The translations under genes and the position numbers were made by a program. The notes beneath the pieces were generated by a model. The model saw only the letters and a list, made by a program, of their open reading frames with translations, was not told where the DNA came from and did no database searches. Below are positions 46,560 to 62,613 of a stretch of DNA of 64,000 nucleotides, one piece after another; position 1 is the first letter of the stretch, and every line of letters begins with the position of its first letter. The DNA comes from Candidatus Accumulibacter cognatus (GTDB taxonomy: Bacteria; Pseudomonadota; Gammaproteobacteria; Burkholderiales; Rhodocyclaceae): the NCBI GenBank assembly GCA_013414765.1, contig CP058708.1:863553-927552 (forward strand). Reading direction: 5' to 3'.

Positions 46560-49500
46560 TCGGGCAGTGCTCGGTGGCTGTCGGCTGGCAAGTGGCGCCC
46601 GGTCGAAGGTGAGGCAGTGCACTGACAGCCGATCGGGCTGGCCGTGGCGTGGTCAGAGTGTCGGGTTGCTGGCTGTGGTGCTCGATCACTGGCAGTTGGT
46701 CCGGGTCTTCGTCCTCTCGATCGGGAAAGCCGGACACGAGGCGACGACGGCGCCGGCGTAGTGCAGTGCTCGAGGTCGATCGGCCAGCAAGTGGCGCCTG
46801 ATCGAGGGTGAGGCAGCGCACTGGCAGCCGGTCGGGCTGGCCGTGGCGTGGTCAAGGTGCCGGGCTGCCGGCAGGCCGTGGTTGCGATCAGCAAGGCCAG
46901 TGTCGAGCGGTGCCTGGTGGCGATCGCCGGCCAGCGGTGCCAGGGAGAAGACGAGACAGCGCACGGGCAGCCGGTCGGGCTGGCCGTGGCGTGGTCAAGG
47001 TGCCGGGCTGCCGGCAGGCCGTGGTTGCGATCAGCAAGGCCAGCGTCGAGCAGTGCCTGGTGGCGATCACCGGCCAGCGGTGCCAGGGCGAAGGCAAGCA
47101 GCGCAACGGCTGCCGATCGGGCTGGCCGTGGTCTGGTCAGGGCCTCGGGTTGCTGGCCGTGGTGCTCGATCACGGGCAGTTGGTCCGGGTCTTCGTCCTC
47201 TCGATCGGGAAAGCCGGCCACAAGGCGACGACGGTGCCGGCGTAGTGCAGTGCTCGAGGTCGATCGGCCAACAAGTGACGCCTGGTCGAAGGTGAGGCAG
47301 CGCGCTGACAGCCGGTCGGGCTGGCCGTGGCGTGGTCAGAGTGTCGGGTTGCTGGCCGTGGTGCTCGATCACGGGCAGTTGGTCCGGGTCTTCGTCCTCT
47401 CGATCGGGAAAGCCGGCCACAAGGCGACGACGGTGCCGGCGTAGTGCAGTGCCCGAGGTCGATCGGCCGGCAAGTGGCGCCTGATCGAGGGTGAGGCAGC
47501 GCACTGGCTGCCGATCGGGCTGGCCGTGGTCTGGTCAGGGCCTCGGGTTGCTGGCCGTGATGCTCGATCACGGGCAGTTGGTCCAGGTCTTCGTCCTCTC
47601 GATCGGGAAAGCCGGCCACGAGGCGACGACGGCGCCAGTGTCGAGCGGTGCCTGGTGGCGATCGCCGGCCAGCGGTGCCAGGGCGAAGGCGAGACGGCGG
47701 ACGGGCTGCCGATCGGGCTGGCCGTGGTCTGGTCAGGGCCTCGGGTTGCTGGTTGTGGTGCTCGATCACGGGCAGTTGGTCCGGGTCTTCGTCCTCTCGA
47801 TCGGGAAAGCCGGCCACAAGGCGACGACGGTGCCGGCGTAGTGCAGTGCTCGAGGTCGATCGGCCAGCAAGTGGCGCCTGGTCGAAGGTGAGGCAGCGCG
47901 CTGGCAGCCGGTCGGGCTGGCCGCGGCGTGGTCAGGATCTCAGATTGCCAGCAGGCAGTGGTTGCGGTCAGCAAGGCGAGCGTCAGGCAGTGCGTCCGGG
48001 TCTTCGTTCTCCCGATTGCTGAAGCCGGCCACACGGCGACGACGGTGCCGGCGTAGTGCAGTGCTCGAGGTCGATCGGCCAGCAAGTGGCGCCTGGTCGA
48101 GGGTGAGGCAGCGCGCTGACAGCCGGTCGGGCTGGCCGTGGCGTGGTCAGGATCTCGGGTTGCCGGCAGGCAGTGGTTGCGGTCAGCAAGGCCAGCGTCG
48201 AGCAGTGCCTGGTGGCGATTACCAGCCAGCGGTGCCAGGGCGAAGGCAAGCAGCGCAACGGCTGCCGGTCAGGCTGGCCGTGGTCTGGTCAGGGCCTCGG
48301 GTTGCTGGTTGTGGTGCTCGATCACGGGCAGTTGGTCCGGGTCTTCGTCCTCTCGATCGGGAAAGCCGGCCACGAGGCAACGACGGCGCATCAGTGTCGA
48401 GCAGTGCCTGGTGGCGATCACCGGCCAGCGGTGCCAGGGCGAAGGCAAGCAGCGCAACGGCTGCCGGTCAGGCTGGCCGTGGTCTGGTGTTGCTGGCCGT
48501 GGTGCTCGATCACGGGCAGTTGGTCCGGGTCTTCGTCCTCTCGATCGGGAAAGCCGGCCACAAGGCGACGACGGTGCCGGCGTAGTGCAGTGCTCGAGGT
48601 CGATCGGCCAACAAGTGACGCCTGGTCGAAGGTGAGGCAGCGCGCTGACAGCCGGTCGGGCTGGCCGTGGCGTGGTCAGAGTGTCGGGTTGCTGGCCGTG
48701 GTGCTCGATCACGGGCAGTTGGTCCGGGTCTTCGTCCTCTCGATCGGGAAAGCCGGCCACAAGGCGACGACGGTGCCGGCGTAGTGCAGTGCCCGAGGTC
48801 GATCGGCCAACAAGTGACGCCTGGTCGAGGGTGAGGCAGCGCGCTGGCAGCCGGTCGGGCTGGCCGTAGCGTGGTCAGAGTGTCGGGTTGCTGGCTGTGG
48901 TGCTCGAACACGGGCAGTTGGTCCGGGTCTTCGTCCTCTCGATCGGGAAAGCCGGCCACAAGGCGACGACGGTGCCGGCGTAGTGCAGTGCTCGAGGTCG
49001 ATCGGCCAGCAAGTGACGCCTGGTCGAAGGTGAGGCAGCGCGCTGGCAGCCGATCGGGCTGGCCGTGGCGTGGTCAGGATCTCGGGCTGCCGGCAGGCCG
49101 TGGTTGCGATCAGCAAGGCCAGCGTCGAGCAGTGCCTGGTGGCGATCACCGGCCAGCGGTGCCAGGGCGAAGGCAAGCAGCGCAACGGCTGCCGATCGGG
49201 CTGGCCGTGGTCTGGTCAGGGCCTCGGGTTGCTGGCCGTGGTGCTCGATCACGGGCAGTTGGTCCGGGTCTTCGTCCTCTCGATCGGGAAAGCCGGCCAC
49301 AAGGCGACGACGGTGCCGGCGTAGTGCAGTGCCCGAGGTCGATCGGCCAACAAGTGACGCCTGGTCGAAGGTGAGGCAGCGCGCTGGCAGCCGATCGGGC
49401 TGGCCGTGGCGTGGTCAGGATCTCGGGCTGCCGGCAGGCCGTGGTTGCGATCAGCAAGGCCAGCGTCGAGCAGTGCCTGGTGGCGATCACCGGCCAGCGG

Positions 49501-52500
49501 TGCCAGGGCGAAGGCAAGCAGCGCAACGGCTGCCGATCGGGCTGGCCGTGGTCTGGTCAGGGCCTCGGGTTGCTGGCCGTGGTGCTCGATCACGGGCAGT
49601 TGGTCCGGGTCTTCGTCCTCTCAATCGGGAAAGCCGGCCACAAGGCGACGACGGTGCCGGCGTAGTGCAGTGCTCGAGGTCGATCGGCCAGCAAGTGGCG
49701 CCTGGTCGAGGGTGAGGCAGCGCGCTGACAGCCGGTCGGGCTGGCCGTGGCGTGGTCAGGATCTCGGGCTGCCGGCAGGCCGTGGTTGCGATCAGCAAGG
49801 CCAGCGTCGAGCAGTGCCTGGTGGCGATCACCGGCCAGCGGTGCCAGGGCGAAGGCAAGCAGCGCAACGGCTGCCGATCGGGCTGGCCGTGGTCTGGTCA
49901 GGGCCTCGGGTTGCTGGCCGTGGTGCTCGATCACGGGCAGTTGGTCCGGGTCTTCGTCCTCTCGATCGGGAAAGCCGACCACAAGGCGACGACGGTGCCG
50001 GCGTAGTGCAGTGCCCGAGGTCGATCGGCCGGCAAGTGGCGCCTGATCGAGGGTGAGGCAGCGCACTGGCTGCCGATCGGGCTGGCCGTGGTCTGGTCAG
50101 GGCCTCGGGTTGCTGGCCGTGGTGCTCGAACACGGGCAGTTGGTCCGGGTCTTCGTCCTCTCGATCGGGAAAGCCGGCCACAAGGCGACGACGGTGCCGG
50201 CGTAGTGCAGTGCTCGAGGTCGATCGGCCAGCAAGTGGCGCCTGGTCGAGGGTGAGGCAGCGCGCTGACAGCCGGTCGGGCTGGCCGTAGCGTGGTCAGG
50301 ATCTCGGGCTGCCGGCAGGCCGTGGTTGCGATCAGCAAGGCCAGCGTCGAGCAGTGCCTGGTGGCAATCACCGGCCAGCGGTGCCAGGGCGAAGGCGAGA
50401 CGGCGGACGGGCTGCCGATCGGGCTGGCCGTGGTCTGGTCAGGGCCTCGGGTTGCTGGTTGTGGTGCTCGATCACGGGCAGTTGGTCCGGGTCTTCGTCC
50501 TCTCGATCGGGAAAGCCGGCCACAAGGCGACGACGGTGCCGGCGTAGTGCAGTGCCCGAGGTCGATCGGCCAGCAAGTGGCGCCTGGTCGAAGGTGAGGC
50601 AGCGCGCTGGCAGCCGGTCGGGCTGGCCGCGGCGTGGTCAGGATCTCAGATTGCCAGCAGGCAGTGGTTGCGGTCAGCAAGGCGAGCGTCAGGCAGTGCG
50701 TCCGGGTCTTCGTTCTCCCGATTGCTGAAGCCGGCCACACGGCGACGACGGTGCCGGCGTAGTGCAGTGCTCGAGGTCGATCGGCCAGCAAGTGGCGCCT
50801 GGTCGAGGGTGAGGCAGCGCGCTGACAGCCGGTCGGGCTGGCCGTGGCGTGGTCAGGATCTCGGGTTGCCGGCAGGCAGTGGTTGCGGTCAGCAAGGCCA
50901 GCGTCGAGCAGTGCCTGGTGGCGATTACCAGCCAGCGGTGCCAGGGCGAAGGCAAGCAGCGCAACGGCTGCCGGTCAGGCTGGCCGTGGTCTGGTCAGGG
51001 CCTCGGGTTGCTGGTTGTGGTGCTCGATCACGGGCAGTTGGTCCGGGTCTTCGTCCTCTCGATCGGGAAAGCCGGCCACGAGGCAACGACGGCGCATCAG
51101 TGTCGAGCGGTGCCTGGTGGCGATCACCGGCCAGCGGTGCCAGGGCGAAGGCAAGCAGCGCAACGGCTGCCGGTCAGGCTGGCCGTGGTCTGGTCAGGGC
51201 CTCGGGTTGCTGGTTGTGGTGCTCGATCACGGGCAGTTGGTCCGGGTCTTCGTCCTCTCGATCGGGAAAGCCGGCCACGAGGCAACGACGGCGCATCAGT
51301 GTCGAGCGGTGCCTGGTGGCGATCACCGGCCAGCGGTGCCAGGGCGAAGGCAAGCAGCGCAACGGCTGCCGGTCAGGCTGGCCGTGGTCTGGTCAGGGCC
51401 TCGGGTTGCTGGTTGTGGTGCTCGATCACGGGCAGTTGGTCCGGGTCTTCGTCCTCTCGATCGGGAAAGCCGGCCACGAGGCAACGACGGCGCATCAGTG
51501 TCGAGCGGTGCCTGGTGGCGATCACCGGCCAGCGGTGCCAGGGCGAAGGCAAGCAGCGCAACGGCTGCCGGTCAGGCTGGCCGTGGTCTGGTCAGGGCCT
51601 CGGGTTGCTGGTTGTGGTGCTCGATCACGGGCAGTTGGTCCGGGTCTTCGTCCTCTCGATCGGGAAAGCCGGCCACAAGGCGACGACGGTGCCGGCGTAG
51701 TGCAGTGCTCGAGGTCGATCGGCCAGCAAGTGACGCCTGGTCGAAGGTGAGGCAGCGCGCTGACAGCCGGTCGGGCTGGCCGTGGCGTGGTCAGGATCTC
51801 TGGTTGCCGGCAGGCAGTGGTTGCGGTCAGCAAGGCCAGCGTCGAGCAGTGCCTGGTGGCAATCACCGGCAAGCGGTGCCAGGGCGAAGGCGAGACGGCG
51901 CACGGGCTGCCGATCGGGCTGGCCGTGGTCTGGTCAGGGCCTCGGGTTGCTGGTTGTGGTGCTCGATCACGGGCAGTTGGTCCGGGTCTTCGTCCTCTCG
52001 ATCGGGAAAGCCGGCCACAAGGCGACGACGGTGCCGGCGTAGTGCAGTGCCCGAGGTCGATCGGCCAGCAAGTGGCGCCTGGTCGAAGGTGAGGCAGCGC
52101 GCTGGCAGCCGGTCGGGCTGGCCGTGGCGTGGTCAGAGTGTCGGGTTGCTGGCTGTGGTGCTCGAACACGGGCAGTTGGTCCCGGTCTTCGTCCTCTCGA
52201 TCGGGAAAGCCGGCCACGAGGCGACGACGGTGCCGGCGTAGTGCAGTGCCCGAGGTCGATCGGCCAACAAGTGACGCCTGGTCGAGGGTGAGGCAGCGCG
52301 CTGGCAGCCGGTCGGGCTGGCCGTGGCGTGGTCAGAGTGTCGGGTTGCTGGCTGTGGTGCTCGAACACGGGCAGTTGGTCCGGGTCTTCGTCCTCTCGAT
52401 CGGGAAAGCCGGCCACAAGGCGACGACGGTGCCGGCGTAGTGCAGTGCTCGAGGTCGATCGGCCAGCAAGTGACGCCTGGTCGAAGGTGAGGCAGCGCGC

Positions 52501-54190
52501 TGGCAGCCGATCGGGCTGGCCGTGGCGTGGTCAGGATCTCGGGCTGCCGGCAGGCCGTGGTTGCGATCAGCAAGGCCAGCGTCGAGCAGTGCCTGGTGGC
52601 GATCACCGGCCAGCGGTGCCAGGGCGAAGGCAAGCAGCGCAACGGCTGCCGATCGGGCTGGCCGTGGCGTGGTCAGGATCTCGGGTTGCCGGCAGGCAGT
52701 GGTTGCGGTCAGCAAGGCCAGCGTCGAGCAGTGCCTGGTGGCGATTACCAGCCAGCGGTGCCAGGGCGAAGGCAAGCAGCGCAACGGCTGCCGGTCAGGC
52801 TGGCCGTGGTCTGGTCAGGGCCTCGGGTTGCTGGTTGTGGTGCTCGATCACGGGCAGTTGGTCCGGGTCTTCGTCCTCTCGATCGGGAAAGCCGGCCACA
52901 AGGCGACGACGGTGCCGGCGTAGTGCAGTGCTCGAGGTCGATCGGCCAGCAAGTGACGCCTGGTCGAAGGTGAGGCAGCGCGCTGACAGCCGGTCGGGCT
53001 GGCCGTGGCGTGGTCAGGATCTCGGGTTGCCGGCAGGCAGTGGTTGCGGTCAGCAAGGCCAGCGTCGAGCAGTGCCTGGTGGCAATCACCGGCAAGCGGT
53101 GCCAGGGCGAAGGCGAGACGGCGCACGGGCTGCCGATCGGGCTGGCCGTGCTCTGGTCAGGGCCTCGGGTTGCTGGCCGTGGTGCTCGATCACGGGCAGT
53201 TGGTCCGGGTCTTCGTCCTCTCGATCGGGAAAGCCGGCCACAAGGCGACGACGGTGCCGGCGTAGTGCAGTGCTCGAGGTCGATCGGCCAACAAGTGACG
53301 CCTGGTCGAAGGTGAGGCAGCGCGCTGACAGCCGGTCGGGCTGGCCGTGGCGTGGTCAGAGTGTCGGGTTGCTGGCTGTGGTGCTCGAACACGGGCAGTT
53401 GGTCCCGGTCTTCGTCCTCTCGATCGGGAAAGCCGGCCACGAGGCGACGACGGTGCCGGCGTAGTGCAGTGCCCGAGGTCGATCGGCCAACAAGTGACGC
53501 CTGGTCGAGGGTGAGGCAGCGCGCTGGCAGCCGGTCGGGCTGGCCGTGGCGTGGTCAGGATCTCGGGCTGCCGGCAGGCCGTGGTTGCGATCAGCAAGGC
53601 CAGCGTCGAGCAGTGCCTGGTGGCGATCACCGGCCAGCGGTGCCAGGGCGAAGGCAAGCAGCGCAACGGCTGCCGATCGGGCTGGCCGTGGTCTGGTCAG
53701 GGCCTCGGGTTGCTGGCCGTGGTGCTCGATCACGGGCAGTTGGTCCGGGTCTTCGTCCTCTCGATCGGGAAAGCCGGCCACAAGGCGACGACGGTGCCGG
53801 CGTAGTGCAGTGCTCGAGGTCGATCGGCCAGCAAGTGGCGCCTGGTCGAGGGTGAGGCAGCGCGCTGACAGCCGGTCGGGCTGGCCGTGGCGTGGTCAGG
53901 ATCTCGGGCTGCCGGCAGGCCGTGGTTGCGATCAGCAAGGCGAGCGTCAGGCAGTGCGTCCGGGTCTTCGTTCTCCCGATTGCTGAAGCCGGCCACAAGG
54001 CGACGACGGTGCCGGCGTAGTGCAGTGCTCGAGGTCGATCGGCCGGCAAGTGGCGCCTGGTCGAGGGTGAGGCAGCGCGCTGACAGCCGGTCGGGCTGGC
54101 CATGGCGTGGTCAGGATCTCAGATTGCCAGCAGGCAGTGGTTGCGGTCAACAAGGCCAGCGTCAGGCAGTGCCCGGTAGCGATCGACGCC
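46560..54190. repeat. Mosaic tandem array of 199- and 142-bp modules
   Basis: About 7.6 kb of tandem units. Each begins with a 28-base hinge that includes CGGGCTGGCCGTGG and ends TGGTCAG. Reading hinge starts from 46629 to 54087 gives 42 units: 20 of module P (199 bp; one copy at 48464 is 188), 14 of Q (142 or 143 bp; the last is partial), five of R (199 bp, one 198; P front joined to Q back) and three of S (215 bp; Q front joined to P back). P contains CGGCGTAGTGCAGTGC and Q contains GCAAGGCCAGCGTCGAG. A diverged P-back half (46560-46628) leads the array. Nearly all units shift the reading frame, so the long open frames on both strands are not credible proteins. Copies at 49050-50073 alternate Q-P with a 341-base period. 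Confidence 0.95.
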
Positions 54191-54195
54191 AGGTG

Positions 54196-54714
54196 TCAGT
54201 CGTTGCCGGTACTGGCGCAGCTCGCCAAGCTCTCAGGCACAACACGGGCGGCCGTCCTCTTGAAAACCGGCTCCCGCACCAATCCACACCATACCTTTAT
54301 ACCTGCGTCATTAAAGCAGGCGTCTATCTTAGATTTTATGTCATTCAGCACACCATGAAAATCAAGATGCTTCCTGAATCCTCTAATTAGGCTGGCCGAA
54401 GGTGGCTTCGGCTTCCATGGGTCAGTACCGATAAAGCGGGCAGTCGCGTAGCTATCCAGAATCACGGCCTCCGTCTGGTCATCGCTCAGATTCCAAAACC
54501 AGCGCACAACCAGACAGCGCAGCAGCATCATTGCCGGATAACCGGGCCTTCCCGTGCTGCGTTTGTCGCTCAGGTAGACGCCTCTTACGATCTTTTCCAG
54601 ATCATCCCACGGTAATAGCCGTTCAAGGTTTGCAAGAGATTCTGCGCGTTTCGGCGATTTTGATCGAGGCCAGCGAACGCACGTAAACAGGCTATCTCCG
54701 TCAGCAGAAATCAT
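54196..54714 (-). pseudogene. Truncated IS5-type transposase
   Basis: The frame encodes an N-terminal DUF772 domain (LERLLPWDDLEKIVRGVYL, RPGYPAMMLLRCLVVRWFWNLSDDQTEAVILDS) up to about residue 140 (54295). The next 31 residues, to the stop at 54196, do not resemble a transposase. The catalytic DDE half is absent. IS5-family transposases are about 330 residues, so the element has been cut at the array edge. The upstream end near 54715-54735 (CTGAACACCCTTAGTC) may be its terminal repeat. Confidence 0.8.
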
Positions 54715-58526: not shown

Positions 58527-58752
58527 CGGGATTTGCCTCGGCTTCCTCGGATTCTCGCAGAGCATCGGCGCACACGGCCAGAAGGTGCCCAGCGCCACGA
58601 GTGGCGCTCTCACTGCTCGTCACGGCGTCGGCCGAAGCCATCGCAAAAAACGCGTCAGACAGGAAGAACAGCACATCACGAACCGCTTGCCTTGTGTCCG
58701 GGCCGGGCTGGTCCATCATCCGCAACGGGTTACTTGAACAAGTCTTATCCAT
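58516..58752 (-). CDS. Small hypothetical protein (78 aa)
   Basis: ATG at 58752 after GGAGG. It overlaps the stop of the previous small gene and the start of the DUF927 gene. The sequence is partly helical, MDKTCSSNPLRMMDQPGP then DVLFFLSDAFFAMASADAV. It is the third of three tiny overlapping genes. P4 carries small genes (kil/eta, cnr) in this position before its primase, but no homology is visible. Confidence 0.65.
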   Translation of the reverse strand: MDKTCSSNPLRMMDQPGPDTRQAVRDVLFFLSDAFFAMASADAVTSSESATRGAGHLLAVCADALRESEEAEANPDGG

Positions 58753-59014
58753 GGCTGGCCTCCATGCTGTTGCTGACAACTGCGTCCACGAGGGCCTTGG
58801 CCATTTCAATGAGATACACGATTGCCCACTGCCGAGCCTCACCGGGTAACCGGTCAGAAGGCAATTCACTGGCCATATCACCGGCTGACGCCAGGAACAG
58901 CGACGCGCCTTCGAGCGCATCCGTCGGCGGCAAGCCTTCTCGGACGGTGAAATAGACGCTCGGCAAGCCAGCGGGCGCAAAGAAAGGCACGGAAACGGTA
59001 GTGTTCTCAGCCAC
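58745..59014 (-). CDS. Small hypothetical protein (89 aa)
   Basis: GTG start at 59014, just inside the previous stop (MAENTTVSVPFFAPAGLP). The C-terminal part is helical (LASAGDMASELPSDRL, WAIVYLIEMAKALVDAVV). Its stop overlaps the next start. I do not recognise it; the tight coupling is the main support. Confidence 0.65.
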   Translation of the reverse strand: MAENTTVSVPFFAPAGLPSVYFTVREGLPPTDALEGASLFLASAGDMASELPSDRLPGEARQWAIVYLIEMAKALVDAVVSNSMEASHG

Positions 59015-59309
59015 GGCACACCCCGCTTTCGGCAACGGAGAGGAACACCGCCAGAGCGGCCGGGATCTGGTCGGCACAGCCGAACACCGCATCCTGCAGC
59101 CCATACAAGCCGTCGAGCAGTTCGCCGGTAGCGCCGGCCACGTCTGGCGCCAAGTCGGGATTGACCACCAAGCAAGCCTGGTTGATGGCATCAGACAGCA
59201 CCAAGCCAGCCGCAGCCAGTGCGTGGATACCGGCAGATTCGAAATGGTCGAGCTTTTGCAGCGTGCGGGATTGGCGCGGGTCGGCGCCAAGAGGGTTTGA
59301 AGCAGCCAT
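59007..59309 (-). CDS. Small hypothetical protein (100 aa)
   Basis: ATG at 59309 preceded by GGAGG, which sits directly after the last leader repeat (59320-59334). The protein is MAASNPLGADPRQ followed by alternating helical segments (ESAGIHALAAAGLVLSDAI, TGELLDGLYGLQDAVF). It is the first gene of the replication operon and directly follows the structured leader, so its translation could be affected by that leader. Confidence 0.7.
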   Translation of the reverse strand: MAASNPLGADPRQSRTLQKLDHFESAGIHALAAAGLVLSDAINQACLVVNPDLAPDVAGATGELLDGLYGLQDAVFGCADQIPAALAVFLSVAESGVCRG

Positions 59310-59596
59310 TGCTGGCCTCCTATTGCTTTTGAGATTGAGAACCACCCGAAATGGGGTGGGGGTGCTCTCAACGCGCAATAGTGCGTCCGGGGCCTTGCGG
59401 CTACCCGACACCCCCATTGACCGGGCCCAATGTGCAGAAGCACGGCGGGCGGAATGAGGGGTGCAAAAATCCCGGCTTCGCAGCAAGGGTGCCGGGGTGC
59501 TGCTATTGCTTTTGAGAGAGCCTTGATTCTGCGCCGGTCTGGTCGACGGTGTCAACAGATGGCGCAGTAGTGGCCTGGTGGGCTTGGAATCCGGAC
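59310..59596 (-). promoter_or_regulatory. Structured leader with two repeats flanking a complementary copy (P4 seqA/B/C-like)
   Basis: On the minus strand, transcript order is CTCTCAAAAGCAATAG (59518-59503), then CTATTGCGCGTTGAGAG (59381-59365), then TCTCAAAAGCAATAG (59334-59320). The middle can pair with either flank as two 7-base helices, CTATTGC with GCAATAG and TTGAGAG with CTCTCAA (the last pair needs the outer C of the first copy). A hairpin CCACCC-CATTTC-GGGTGG lies beside it at 59343-59360. The last copy abuts the GGAGG of the 100-residue gene. P4 immunity uses a processed RNA (CI) whose seqB pairs with seqA and seqC in the same leader. The arrangement here matches, but no homology at base level has been tested. 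Confidence 0.6.
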
Positions 59597-60130
59597 TCAC
59601 TTCGCCACCGTCGACGGTTCGAGCAGATCGGCCAGCATATCCGGCACGGGGACGCCTTGAACCGCATCCATCGCCATCCGGTGCAGGGTGTCGTTATCCA
59701 GCGCATCCAGGCGAGAACCCAGCACCTGCAGTCGCATGGGCGCGCACAGTGCCATTTCCAGCACTATCCCAATTGGCGCAAGGTAAGACGATGAAACGCT
59801 GTCGCCGTAGTGTTCACGAAGAACGCGCAGCAGTTCCATCATGTCCGCAAGGAAGCCGCCGCAGGGGCACAGCGAACCGCCAGATGGTGTATCACCGTCA
59901 TAGCGGGAGAGCTTGAGGGCAGCAAACGCCATGACCATTGCGAGCGAGCCGCCCGCATACTCCTGGTCCTCTCGGTCGCCGGATTGGCTGGTTTGGTCCG
60001 GCGCAATCGGGAACCTGAACGGAAACTGCCGCGCGTCGGGAAGCTGGGAAAAAGACCACGAATCATCAGCATTGATGCTGAACACCAGCACCTTGCGCCA
60101 CTGTTCGAGCAAAGCGGCTTGAGCGTTCAT
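59597..60130 (-). CDS. Hypothetical protein, 177 aa, between AlpA and the leader
   Basis: The start ATG overlaps the AlpA stop (ATGA). The body includes a CPCGGFLADMMELLRVLREHYGDSV segment. It has no recognised domain. It lies before the leader, so a transcript from alpA would cross it into the replication operon. Confidence 0.65.
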   Translation of the reverse strand: MNAQAALLEQWRKVLVFSINADDSWSFSQLPDARQFPFRFPIAPDQTSQSGDREDQEYAGGSLAMVMAFAALKLSRYDGDTPSGGSLCPCGGFLADMMELLRVLREHYGDSVSSSYLAPIGIVLEMALCAPMRLQVLGSRLDALDNDTLHRMAMDAVQGVPVPDMLADLLEPSTVAK

Positions 60131-61419: not shown

Positions 61420-61857
61420 CTATGCCGCAATCCGCCAGCCGTTTTCACTCTCTTCGGCGGTCATCCGTGCGTGCTCCGCATGATCGGTGTTGCTGATGCG
61501 CTCGATTGTCGAACGGATCGGGACGTTTCCGCCGATGTGCTCCAGGTAGATCAGCCGGATCATCCGATCGGCGGTCTTCGGCACGCGCCCCGTCTTTTCC
61601 CATTTGGCGACAGCTTGATCAGCGGTGCCGAGAAGTTCCCCGAGAGCGCGTTGTGACAAGTCCATTTCCTTGCGCAAGAAGCGCAGTTCGGCGCCAGTAA
61701 TCCAGGCTTTCTTGGCAAGCGTTTCGCCGATCGCCCGATGGAGACCGGCAACGTCATGAATCGCCACGCCTGAGCCATAACTGGTTTCCACAATCTCATA
61801 GCCGCTAGCCAGCCAGATGTTGTGCAGCCCGCTTTCCGTATAGTGGTATTCGCTCAT
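61420..61857 (-). CDS. Helix-turn-helix antitoxin-like protein
   Basis: 145 residues. The N-terminal half (MSEYHYTESGLHNIWLASGYEIV, GVAIHDVAGLHRAIG) is like MqsA-type or 'YgiT-like' antitoxins. The C-terminal half has an XRE helix-turn-helix (AELRFLRKEMDLSQRALGELLGTADQAVAKWEK). Its start overlaps the DUF4258 stop by 4 bases. Together they look like a type II toxin-antitoxin pair with the toxin first, as in mqsRA. Toxin activity has not been shown. Confidence 0.75.
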   Translation of the reverse strand: MSEYHYTESGLHNIWLASGYEIVETSYGSGVAIHDVAGLHRAIGETLAKKAWITGAELRFLRKEMDLSQRALGELLGTADQAVAKWEKTGRVPKTADRMIRLIYLEHIGGNVPIRSTIERISNTDHAEHARMTAEESENGWRIAA

Positions 61858-62180
61858 CTCATCACCGTAACGACAATGCAGTAATCCCCGTTTTCCTTCC
61901 TTTCAAGTACCACAGCAACCGCAATCACGTCGCCGGCGCAGCGGTGCGTCACCGTCGCTTTCCAGTCGCCACGATGCGTCAGGTGAGCCGGTTCGCTGAC
62001 CGTTCCCTTTTGCAGGCAAGAAATGACCTGATTCAGGTTAATCTTGCGCTCGCGCATCCGCTGCTTGGCGTGCTGGACAACCACCACCCTCGACGAGTCC
62101 GCCGCTGCCTGACGCAGACGCTTGAGGAAATTGGCGTCGTTCAAGGCGAATGGCAGAGCAGAGACCGTATTTGCGTTCAT
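61854..62180 (-). CDS. DUF4258 protein, candidate toxin
   Basis: 108 residues from the ATG at 62180, after TATAGGA. The DUF4258 core is VVVVQHAKQRMRERKINLNQVISCL with an HAxxRMxER pattern, and a C-terminal VIAVAVVLERKENGDYCIVVTVM. Related small domains resemble RelE-type toxins. Its stop overlaps the antitoxin-like start. A palindrome just upstream (62182-62198) suggests autoregulation. Confidence 0.7.
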   Translation of the reverse strand: MNANTVSALPFALNDANFLKRLRQAAADSSRVVVVQHAKQRMRERKINLNQVISCLQKGTVSEPAHLTHRGDWKATVTHRCAGDVIAVAVVLERKENGDYCIVVTVMR

Positions 62181-62181
62181 T

Positions 62182-62198
62182 CCTATATATTGTATAGG
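62182..62198. promoter_or_regulatory. Palindromic operator candidate
   Basis: CCTATA-TATTG-TATAGG: two 6-base arms around a 5-base centre, two bases before the DUF4258 start. It overlaps an AT-rich -10-like region, as expected for toxin-antitoxin autorepression. Confidence 0.5.
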
Positions 62199-62613
62199 TT
62201 TTGAACGACATAGCAAGGCGTCAAGGCGCGCGTGCCGATTACCGGCAGTCGCCAACGGCGCCGGGCACATCCGCCGTCGACCGCCATCCGAGCCAGTCCG
62301 CCGGCAAGATCATTGTCGACAGCAAGTACACCAGCCGGCCAGAATACGCCAGGCGCGCACCACGGGCCAAGCCGATGAAGCCCCCGGCACCTCGATCGCT
62401 ACCTACTGCCAGCGGCGCCCGGTTCAGACGGCAGTCGCTCGCGATCCCGGCAGCCGGCCGGCCAAGGTACTGCCAGCCGCACGCCCATAGGCCAAGCCGA
62501 TTAAGCCAGGCGCCATCGCCGTCAACGCCACCCTCTGTTCAATTAAAGCCCATTGCGCGCGCAGCCGATGCCGCAGCGGGGATAGCTTCGCGCAGTAATC
62601 TGCATTACCAAAC
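62199..62613. other. Gap without genes between the toxin-antitoxin pair and integrase
   Basis: 415 bases, GC-rich, with no good coding frame. It has loose internal repetition of GGCCAAGCCGAT (62365 and 62490). A 14-base match to the left array flank (GGGCCAAGCCGATG at 46501) occurs at 62364. Confidence 0.5.

Follow-up and report, generated by a model that had tools for sequence, protein, structure and literature searches.

What does a leader do that places two direct copies of a short sequence around one inverted copy, directly ahead of the replication genes of a mobile element? The question is raised by the window, the whole 64,000-nucleotide stretch of Candidatus Accumulibacter cognatus DNA analyzed here, which is part of a 5.17-Mb single-contig genome. 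On its minus strand, the element comprises, in order, a tyrosine integrase, a DUF4258 protein, an HTH protein and an int-alpA RNA. Next come a protein of 245 aa, a small HTH/excisionase-like one and one of 177 aa; after these lies the leader, which is followed by three small ORFs and a DUF927 primase-helicase (Table 1). As judged from the nucleotide sequence and its relatives, the leader RNA is likely to be a divergent antisense RNA switch of the C4/CI type.

The product of the first gene after the leader has no match in Pfam or PHROG, and the start of the primase was chosen in the analysis, its frame being open from position 58613. Attachment repeats and a tRNA beside the integrase were looked for and none were found. 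The overlapping DUF4258 and HTH genes (61420-62270, minus strand) resemble a toxin-antitoxin pair, the pairing of the two being inferred, and the int-alpA RNA is also found in 8 of 20 DUF927 loci (L034, L036, L037, L041, L042, L043, L044 and L047). Adjoining the element is a 7-kb array of nested tandem repeats (46813-54172) with periods of about 142, 199, 215, 341 and more bases and 82-98% matches; a DUF772 transposase-like fragment (54196-54714, minus strand) lies between the primase and this array.

Table 1. Features of the leader and the surrounding element, in minus-strand order (positions in the window).
Feature	Position	Strand	Details
Tyrosine integrase	63894-62614	minus	
int-alpA RNA (RF02996), upstream of AlpA-like gene	61286-61218	minus	Rfam 59.9 bits
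Sigma-70-like promoter TTGACA-18-CAGAAT (candidate)	59555-59526	minus	10/12 matches
Site A, upstream target, CTCTCAA + GCAATAG	59518-59503	minus	CTCTCAAAAGCAATAG; 7+7 bases complementary to B
Intrinsic-terminator-like hairpin CCCGGC/GCCGGG	59496-59465	minus	14-base loop, then ATTTTT
C4-like folded RNA, c4-2 match (RF02944)	59417-59349	minus	34.1 bits (below the Rfam gathering score of 41); E 2.7e-5 for the 801 bases searched (59000-59800)
Inverted copy B, P3 loop CTATTGC + junction TTGAGAG of the folded RNA	59381-59365	minus	CTATTGCGCGTTGAGAG
Site C, downstream target, TCTCAA + GCAATAG	59335-59320	minus	ATCTCAAAAGCAATAG; last two bases within AGGAGG
Shine-Dalgarno AGGAGG of first gene	59321-59316	minus	ATG at 59309
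First gene, 100 aa	59007-59309	minus	
Second gene, 89 aa from GTG, DUF3077	58745-59014	minus	Pfam 3.4e-8, on a slightly longer frame
Third gene, 78 aa	58516-58752	minus	
DUF927 primase-helicase, 994 aa	55542-58526	minus	Pfam DUF927 1.9e-84; PHROG DNA primase; start at ATG 58526

An initial annotation, made from the letters alone, had described two direct copies flanking an inverted one, the last copy touching the ribosome site of the first of three tiny genes that precede a DUF927 primase, and this anatomy is borne out at exact coordinates, with site C running into AGGAGG and with genes of 100, 89, 78 and then 994 aa following. The same annotation proposed that the middle copy can pair with either flank through two 7-base helices, which holds at A (7+7) but not at C, where the match is 6+7 with TCTCAA in place of CTCTCAA. 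The predicted duplex energies are -21.6 kcal/mol for B:A and -17.0 kcal/mol for B:C. When the 300-nt leader was shuffled 5000 times, the bipartite triple never arose, whereas a lone 7-mer triple appeared in 40 of the shuffles; nor did it arise in any of 20 dinucleotide shuffles of the 64-kb strand. On the real minus strand of the window the leader holds the single bipartite triple, and the plus strand has one, at 49382, within the long repeat array. The 298-nt leader also folds with a z-score of -3.68 relative to its own shuffles, none of 200 being equally low. That the copies are chance repeats devoid of function is contradicted by the shuffles and further by the covariation described below, and can be given only a negligible probability.

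B takes up the P3 loop and the 3′ junction of a fold that matches the consensus of the c4-2 family end to end (model positions 1-79 of 79), with a score below the cut-off of that family. The c4-2 family is named for its likeness to C4, and in Rfam it shares a clan with the C4 antisense RNA. At E values up to 10, the only other Rfam match in 59000-59800 is to aceE-II, at 14 bits against a cut-off of 100, which we take to be due to chance; in the same interval C4 itself (RF01695) gave no match, overlapping hits of the same clan being reduced to the best one, and sRNA-Xcc1 (RF02221) has no match in the window or elsewhere in the genome to which it belongs. Besides the fold and the best Rfam score, the leader shares with c4-2 RNAs the position ahead of a mobile-element operon; shifts of one base ahead of P2 and within the junction, read from alignment A5, separate the two Accumulibacter sequences from loci L164-L169.

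In the P4 immunity region, which served as the positive control, C4 was recovered at 74.9 bits and isrK, matching the A side, at 60.8 bits, and c4-a1b1, which represents the upstream targets, reached 44.1 bits, just below its cut-off of 46.7. Complements of the P4 loop CCTGTGAA lie 188 bases upstream and 79 bases downstream, and those of the P4 junction TTCTCAC lie 219 bases upstream and 33 bases downstream. The CI RNA of P4 pairs with seqA and seqC, causing premature termination (PMC4825925). The window leader has the same A-B-C order, with RNA complementary to targets on both sides, the complementarity being kept in relatives, and with replication genes (three small ORFs and the DUF927 primase) after it, as in P4 (PMC4825925). 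It differs in that the targets of the loop and of the junction are 0-3 bases apart here and approximately 24 bases apart in the downstream site of P4, and premature termination is a documented property of P4 and a candidate one of the window leader. C4 of phages P1 and P7 acts on the antirepressor mRNA, which it blocks around the ribosome-binding site (PMC12197685; PMC5320573). The three-stem fold, the antisense loop and junction, and a complementary site at the ribosome-binding site (C extending into AGGAGG) are common to that system and the window leader, and antirepressor genes follow related c4-2-type RNAs; the window operon, in contrast, consists of small genes plus a DUF927 primase, and an RF01695 match is lacking. 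The P4-like reading first given to this leader stands as regards the anatomy and the candidate status of the switch, but the nearest Rfam family is c4-2 and not the C4 family of P4.

Comparison within the genus shows that the pairing is maintained while its letters change. Of the 28 genus genomes, 2 contain the leader, one of them being that of the window; the element is carried by the genus relative G001 and by contig NZ_FLQX01000130.1 of Ca. Accumulibacter aalborgensis. In the other genus genome, a c4-2 match of 33.3 bits lies at the corresponding place and the leader with its neighbors is 82% identical over the aligned stretch; A, B and C are altered together amid largely identical surroundings, the loop CTATTGC with GCAATAG on both sides being replaced by CTTAGTT with AACTAAG in A and AACTAGG in C, where the pairing includes one G-U. 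A search for covariance among related elements had been suggested as a check on the switch, and its outcome is favorable, with pairing to both flanks kept through compensatory change. This conservation of the match between loop and targets despite changing letters suggests that the leader is probably a self-recognizing off-switch, as in P1 and P4.

For a wider comparison, 59 loci were collected by Rfam family, not by pairing: 9 of the c4-2 type, 47 of the sRNA-Xcc1 type and 3 of the C4 type (L039, L046 and P4), the duplicate L172 having been dropped before counting and near-identical loci such as L153 and L157 retained with their relatedness uncorrected. Among the 399 genomes of the order, RF02221 matches occur in 30 (27 over the cut-off) and RF02944 matches in six including the window, none over the cut-off. 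When Watson-Crick pairs between the loop region and the two flanks were counted jointly, at least 14 bases were paired in 34/59 self comparisons versus 95/3422 cross comparisons, and at least 13 in 41/59 versus 215/3422. With one G-U allowed, 51 of the 59 loci reach 13, with 46 distinct cores, this score having no cross control and some of the cores being chance-like. Exact 7-mer triples combined with a hairpin were also tried as a detector on 99 primase loci and dropped, as 20 loci were found and 17.2 expected.

A covariance model covering just the folded RNA (R1), built from 12 sequences and restricted to 14 pairs of P1 and P2 because MAFFT misplaced P3, was searched in 96 sources, with L039, L045, L046, L051 and L054 left out; the model does not look for C4 or sRNA-Xcc1 types. 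In the 79 named DUF927 loci, some of them on short contigs, it recovered another 12 leaders at E < 0.05, including those of Comamonas terrae, C. testosteroni, Limnohabitans planktonicus and Extensimonas perlucida. R1 found no such leader in L035, the closest locus by primase after the genus, and by this model the leader is patchily distributed among DUF927 elements. In two of the new loci (L094 and L107) the A side is missing at a contig edge, and joint pairing of at least 13 was observed in 8 of the 10 that have both sides; when these were combined with the 12 model sequences, at least 14 was reached in 13/22 self versus 14/462 cross comparisons, and at least 13 in 18/22 versus 54/462. Searches of plasmids and phages by leader DNA, and of the viral_contigs collection by primase and by the c4-2 DNA pattern, retrieved nothing.

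In a further test, the loop, A and C were cut out of 15 loci by their conserved flanks rather than by complementarity, and loci with the same loop were merged into one row, which left 12 rows from 13 loci for A and 14 from 15 for C. Watson-Crick pairing was observed at 75 of 84 loop:A positions (permutation mean 46.1, largest 64) and at 85 of 98 loop:C positions (mean 55.8, largest 76), and in both cases 0/20000 permutations reached the observed value. The test is not blind because the anchors were written after the loci had been seen; the anchors hold constant the CT of the loop and, in C, the AG that precedes GA, letters that do not vary and that the permutation keeps, and the set includes L163, L186 and L187 from R1's own alignment and L111 (Comamonas terrae), already met in the 7-mer pairing scan. 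Pairing of the B junction with the A junction, represented by 3 distinct rows, is unproven by permutation, since 3335/20000 permutations reach the observed value.

The specificity of recognition is imperfect. Self pairing is strictly above every cross pairing in 14 of the 59 loci, and by duplex energy, calculated for ten named loci, the self combination is lowest in 5 of 10 rows. The aalborgensis RNA has predicted energies of -20.1 and -16.8 with the window sites and of -23.8 and -17.0 with its own; as it is predicted to pair well with the window sites, the two elements may cross-react in one direction. Joint pairing of at least 13 occurs in 11/118 same-genome ordered pairs and in 150/2432 different-genome pairs, so that avoidance of cross-recognition within a genome is not established. 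One 2.3-Mb genome (G435) contains ten sRNA-Xcc1 matches (L151, L174, L175, L176, L178-L182 and L184) with eight distinct loop cores.

The signals around the three copies bear on the way in which pairing might exert control. The promoter-like pair upstream of A in the window leader, found once versus 0.1 expected in shuffles and recurring in L034 with the same hexamers and spacing, would put site A at the transcript's extreme 5′ end. In the 59-locus set, the best promoter-like pair upstream of A scores 9.0/12 on average versus 7.4 in shuffles, and in all 9 c4-2-type loci such a pair (8-11/12) ends 12-18 nt before the loop site of A. The terminator-like hairpin of the window, also kept in L034, came from a dedicated search that admits loops of up to 16 bases and is not listed by the standard terminator scan, which allows loops of 3-8. 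A hairpin of this kind lies between A and the folded RNA in 46/59 loci versus 5.9 expected, the shuffles for hairpins and promoters being mononucleotide ones that preserve single-base content alone. Downstream, in 40 of the 51 loci whose pairing score is at least 13, C overlaps letters resembling a Shine-Dalgarno sequence or lies directly next to them. The recurring order is promoter, A, terminator-like hairpin, folded RNA, and C leading into the Shine-Dalgarno sequence.

These features can be read in terms of termination, as in P4 CI: pairing of B with A and C would trigger premature termination, with translation affected secondarily. The A-B-C order is that of P4, the hairpin follows A closely in the 46 leaders just mentioned, and in predicted folds the hairpin gains more than 0.2 on blocking of A in 12/41 leaders, 10 of them of the sRNA-Xcc1 type, and becomes weaker in 1/41. 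In the window leader, however, folding predicts the hairpin whether A is blocked (0.99) or free (0.97), and the position of C in those 40 of 51 leaders points to translation; we consider this mode possible but doubtful here. Of the two control steps envisaged in the initial annotation, an effect at the ribosome site is retained, and termination triggered at A finds no support in the folding of this leader, which makes occlusion of the ribosome site the better-supported step. Judging by the placement of C, we lean towards a block at the first gene's ribosome site as the main step.

The same layout could also serve an on-switch. In Salmonella, IsrK is a short terminated leader RNA that acts in trans on its own read-through mRNA, and its authors regard seqA of P4 as a structural homologue of IsrK, as far as the available part of PMC4825925 describes it. 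By analogy, the short terminated A RNA would pair with B in the read-through mRNA and open the ribosome site. The promoter, the short terminated RNA and the read-through mRNA with a complementary segment are features of IsrK (RF01394; same portion of PMC4825925) that the leader resembles, and the isrK model does match the A side of P4. IsrK, however, is an activator, the window leader has no isrK match at E values up to 10, and complementarity between C and the loop is conserved, although an RNA acting purely as an activator could do without it; a role of this kind seems unlikely.

Purely intramolecular folding, in which A, B and C form alternative helices as in an attenuator or riboswitch and no RNA is released, would use identical pairings within one molecule, and the leader folds well. 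It is hard to reconcile with the location of B in a closed C4 fold that presents its letters in the loop and the junction, and with the related sRNA-Xcc1, an 88-nt RNA with mapped ends cloned from Xanthomonas campestris (according to the accessible sections of PMC2996969). We regard this alternative as improbable.

The sRNA-Xcc1 family itself was unexpectedly found to share the promoter-A-hairpin-RNA-C layout in many loci, where it precedes antirepressors, SymE or DUF927 primases. Among the first 20 DUF927 loci, RF02221 lies near the primase operon in three (L036 and L037 over the cut-off, L045 below it), C4 in two and c4-2 in one. The sRNA-Xcc1 RNAs differ from the window RNA in a longer P2 region, and they are outside the C4 clan, no clan being assigned to RF02221 in the Rfam output. 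Pfam matches in the first ORFs of 51 of the 59 loci (L134, L135, L140, L141, L145, L160, L162 and L185 were left out) are to AntA/AntB, Rha and KilA-N (3 each) and to P22_AR_N, Bro-N and SymE (2 each), where one protein may match several families; in 5 of the 9 c4-2-type loci, the first gene matches AntA/AntB, Rha or KilA-N, resembling in this the targets of C4 in P1 and P7 (PMC12197685). Directly after sRNA-Xcc1-type RNAs, SymE-matching genes are located in L136 (1501-1836) and L171 (1501-1839). In the literature, sRNA-Xcc1 has been noted upstream of symE in integron cassettes (available text of PMC12444791), the title of a 2011 paper presents it as trans-acting and under HrpG and HrpX, and the accessible portion of PMC12189769 treats it as virulence-linked in Xylella. 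The parts of the literature available to us contained no link between the sRNA-Xcc1 and C4 families; an earlier link in 10.1093/nar/gkx699 or PMC3256417 is possible. On balance, we favor the view that C4/CI, c4-2 and sRNA-Xcc1 form one superfamily of self-recognition switches, with a hypervariable 7-nt loop that co-evolves with two targets and provides mobile elements with dozens of RNA immunity types, and that the main role of sRNA-Xcc1 is to switch, in cis, prophage antirepressors, satellite-like replication operons and SymE toxins.

Returning to the window leader as a C4/CI-type antisense switch, we infer its transcription, processing, pairing in the cell, repression and immunity from the letters, positions, fold score and covariation. 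The transcript would start at the candidate promoter with site A as its first bases, followed directly by the terminator-like hairpin; read-through transcripts would carry the C4-like RNA, which is probably excised at a length of roughly 70 nt. The P3 loop and junction of this RNA would then pair in trans with C, hiding the Shine-Dalgarno sequence of the first gene, and also with A, beside the terminator, where pairing may act on termination as in P4. The replication operon of the resident element would thereby be kept silent, an incoming element with identical A and C letters would be silenced as well, and the short terminated A RNA could be a decoy that relieves repression.

On this reading, the RNA immunity logic of P1 and P4 would extend to DUF927 replication elements of environmental Burkholderiales-like bacteria. 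The letter code would be a simple one, the loop being the reverse complement of the bases that run into the Shine-Dalgarno sequence, so that compatibility groups may be predictable. It would also give sRNA-Xcc1, of unsettled function in the portions of the literature available, a definite role in cis.
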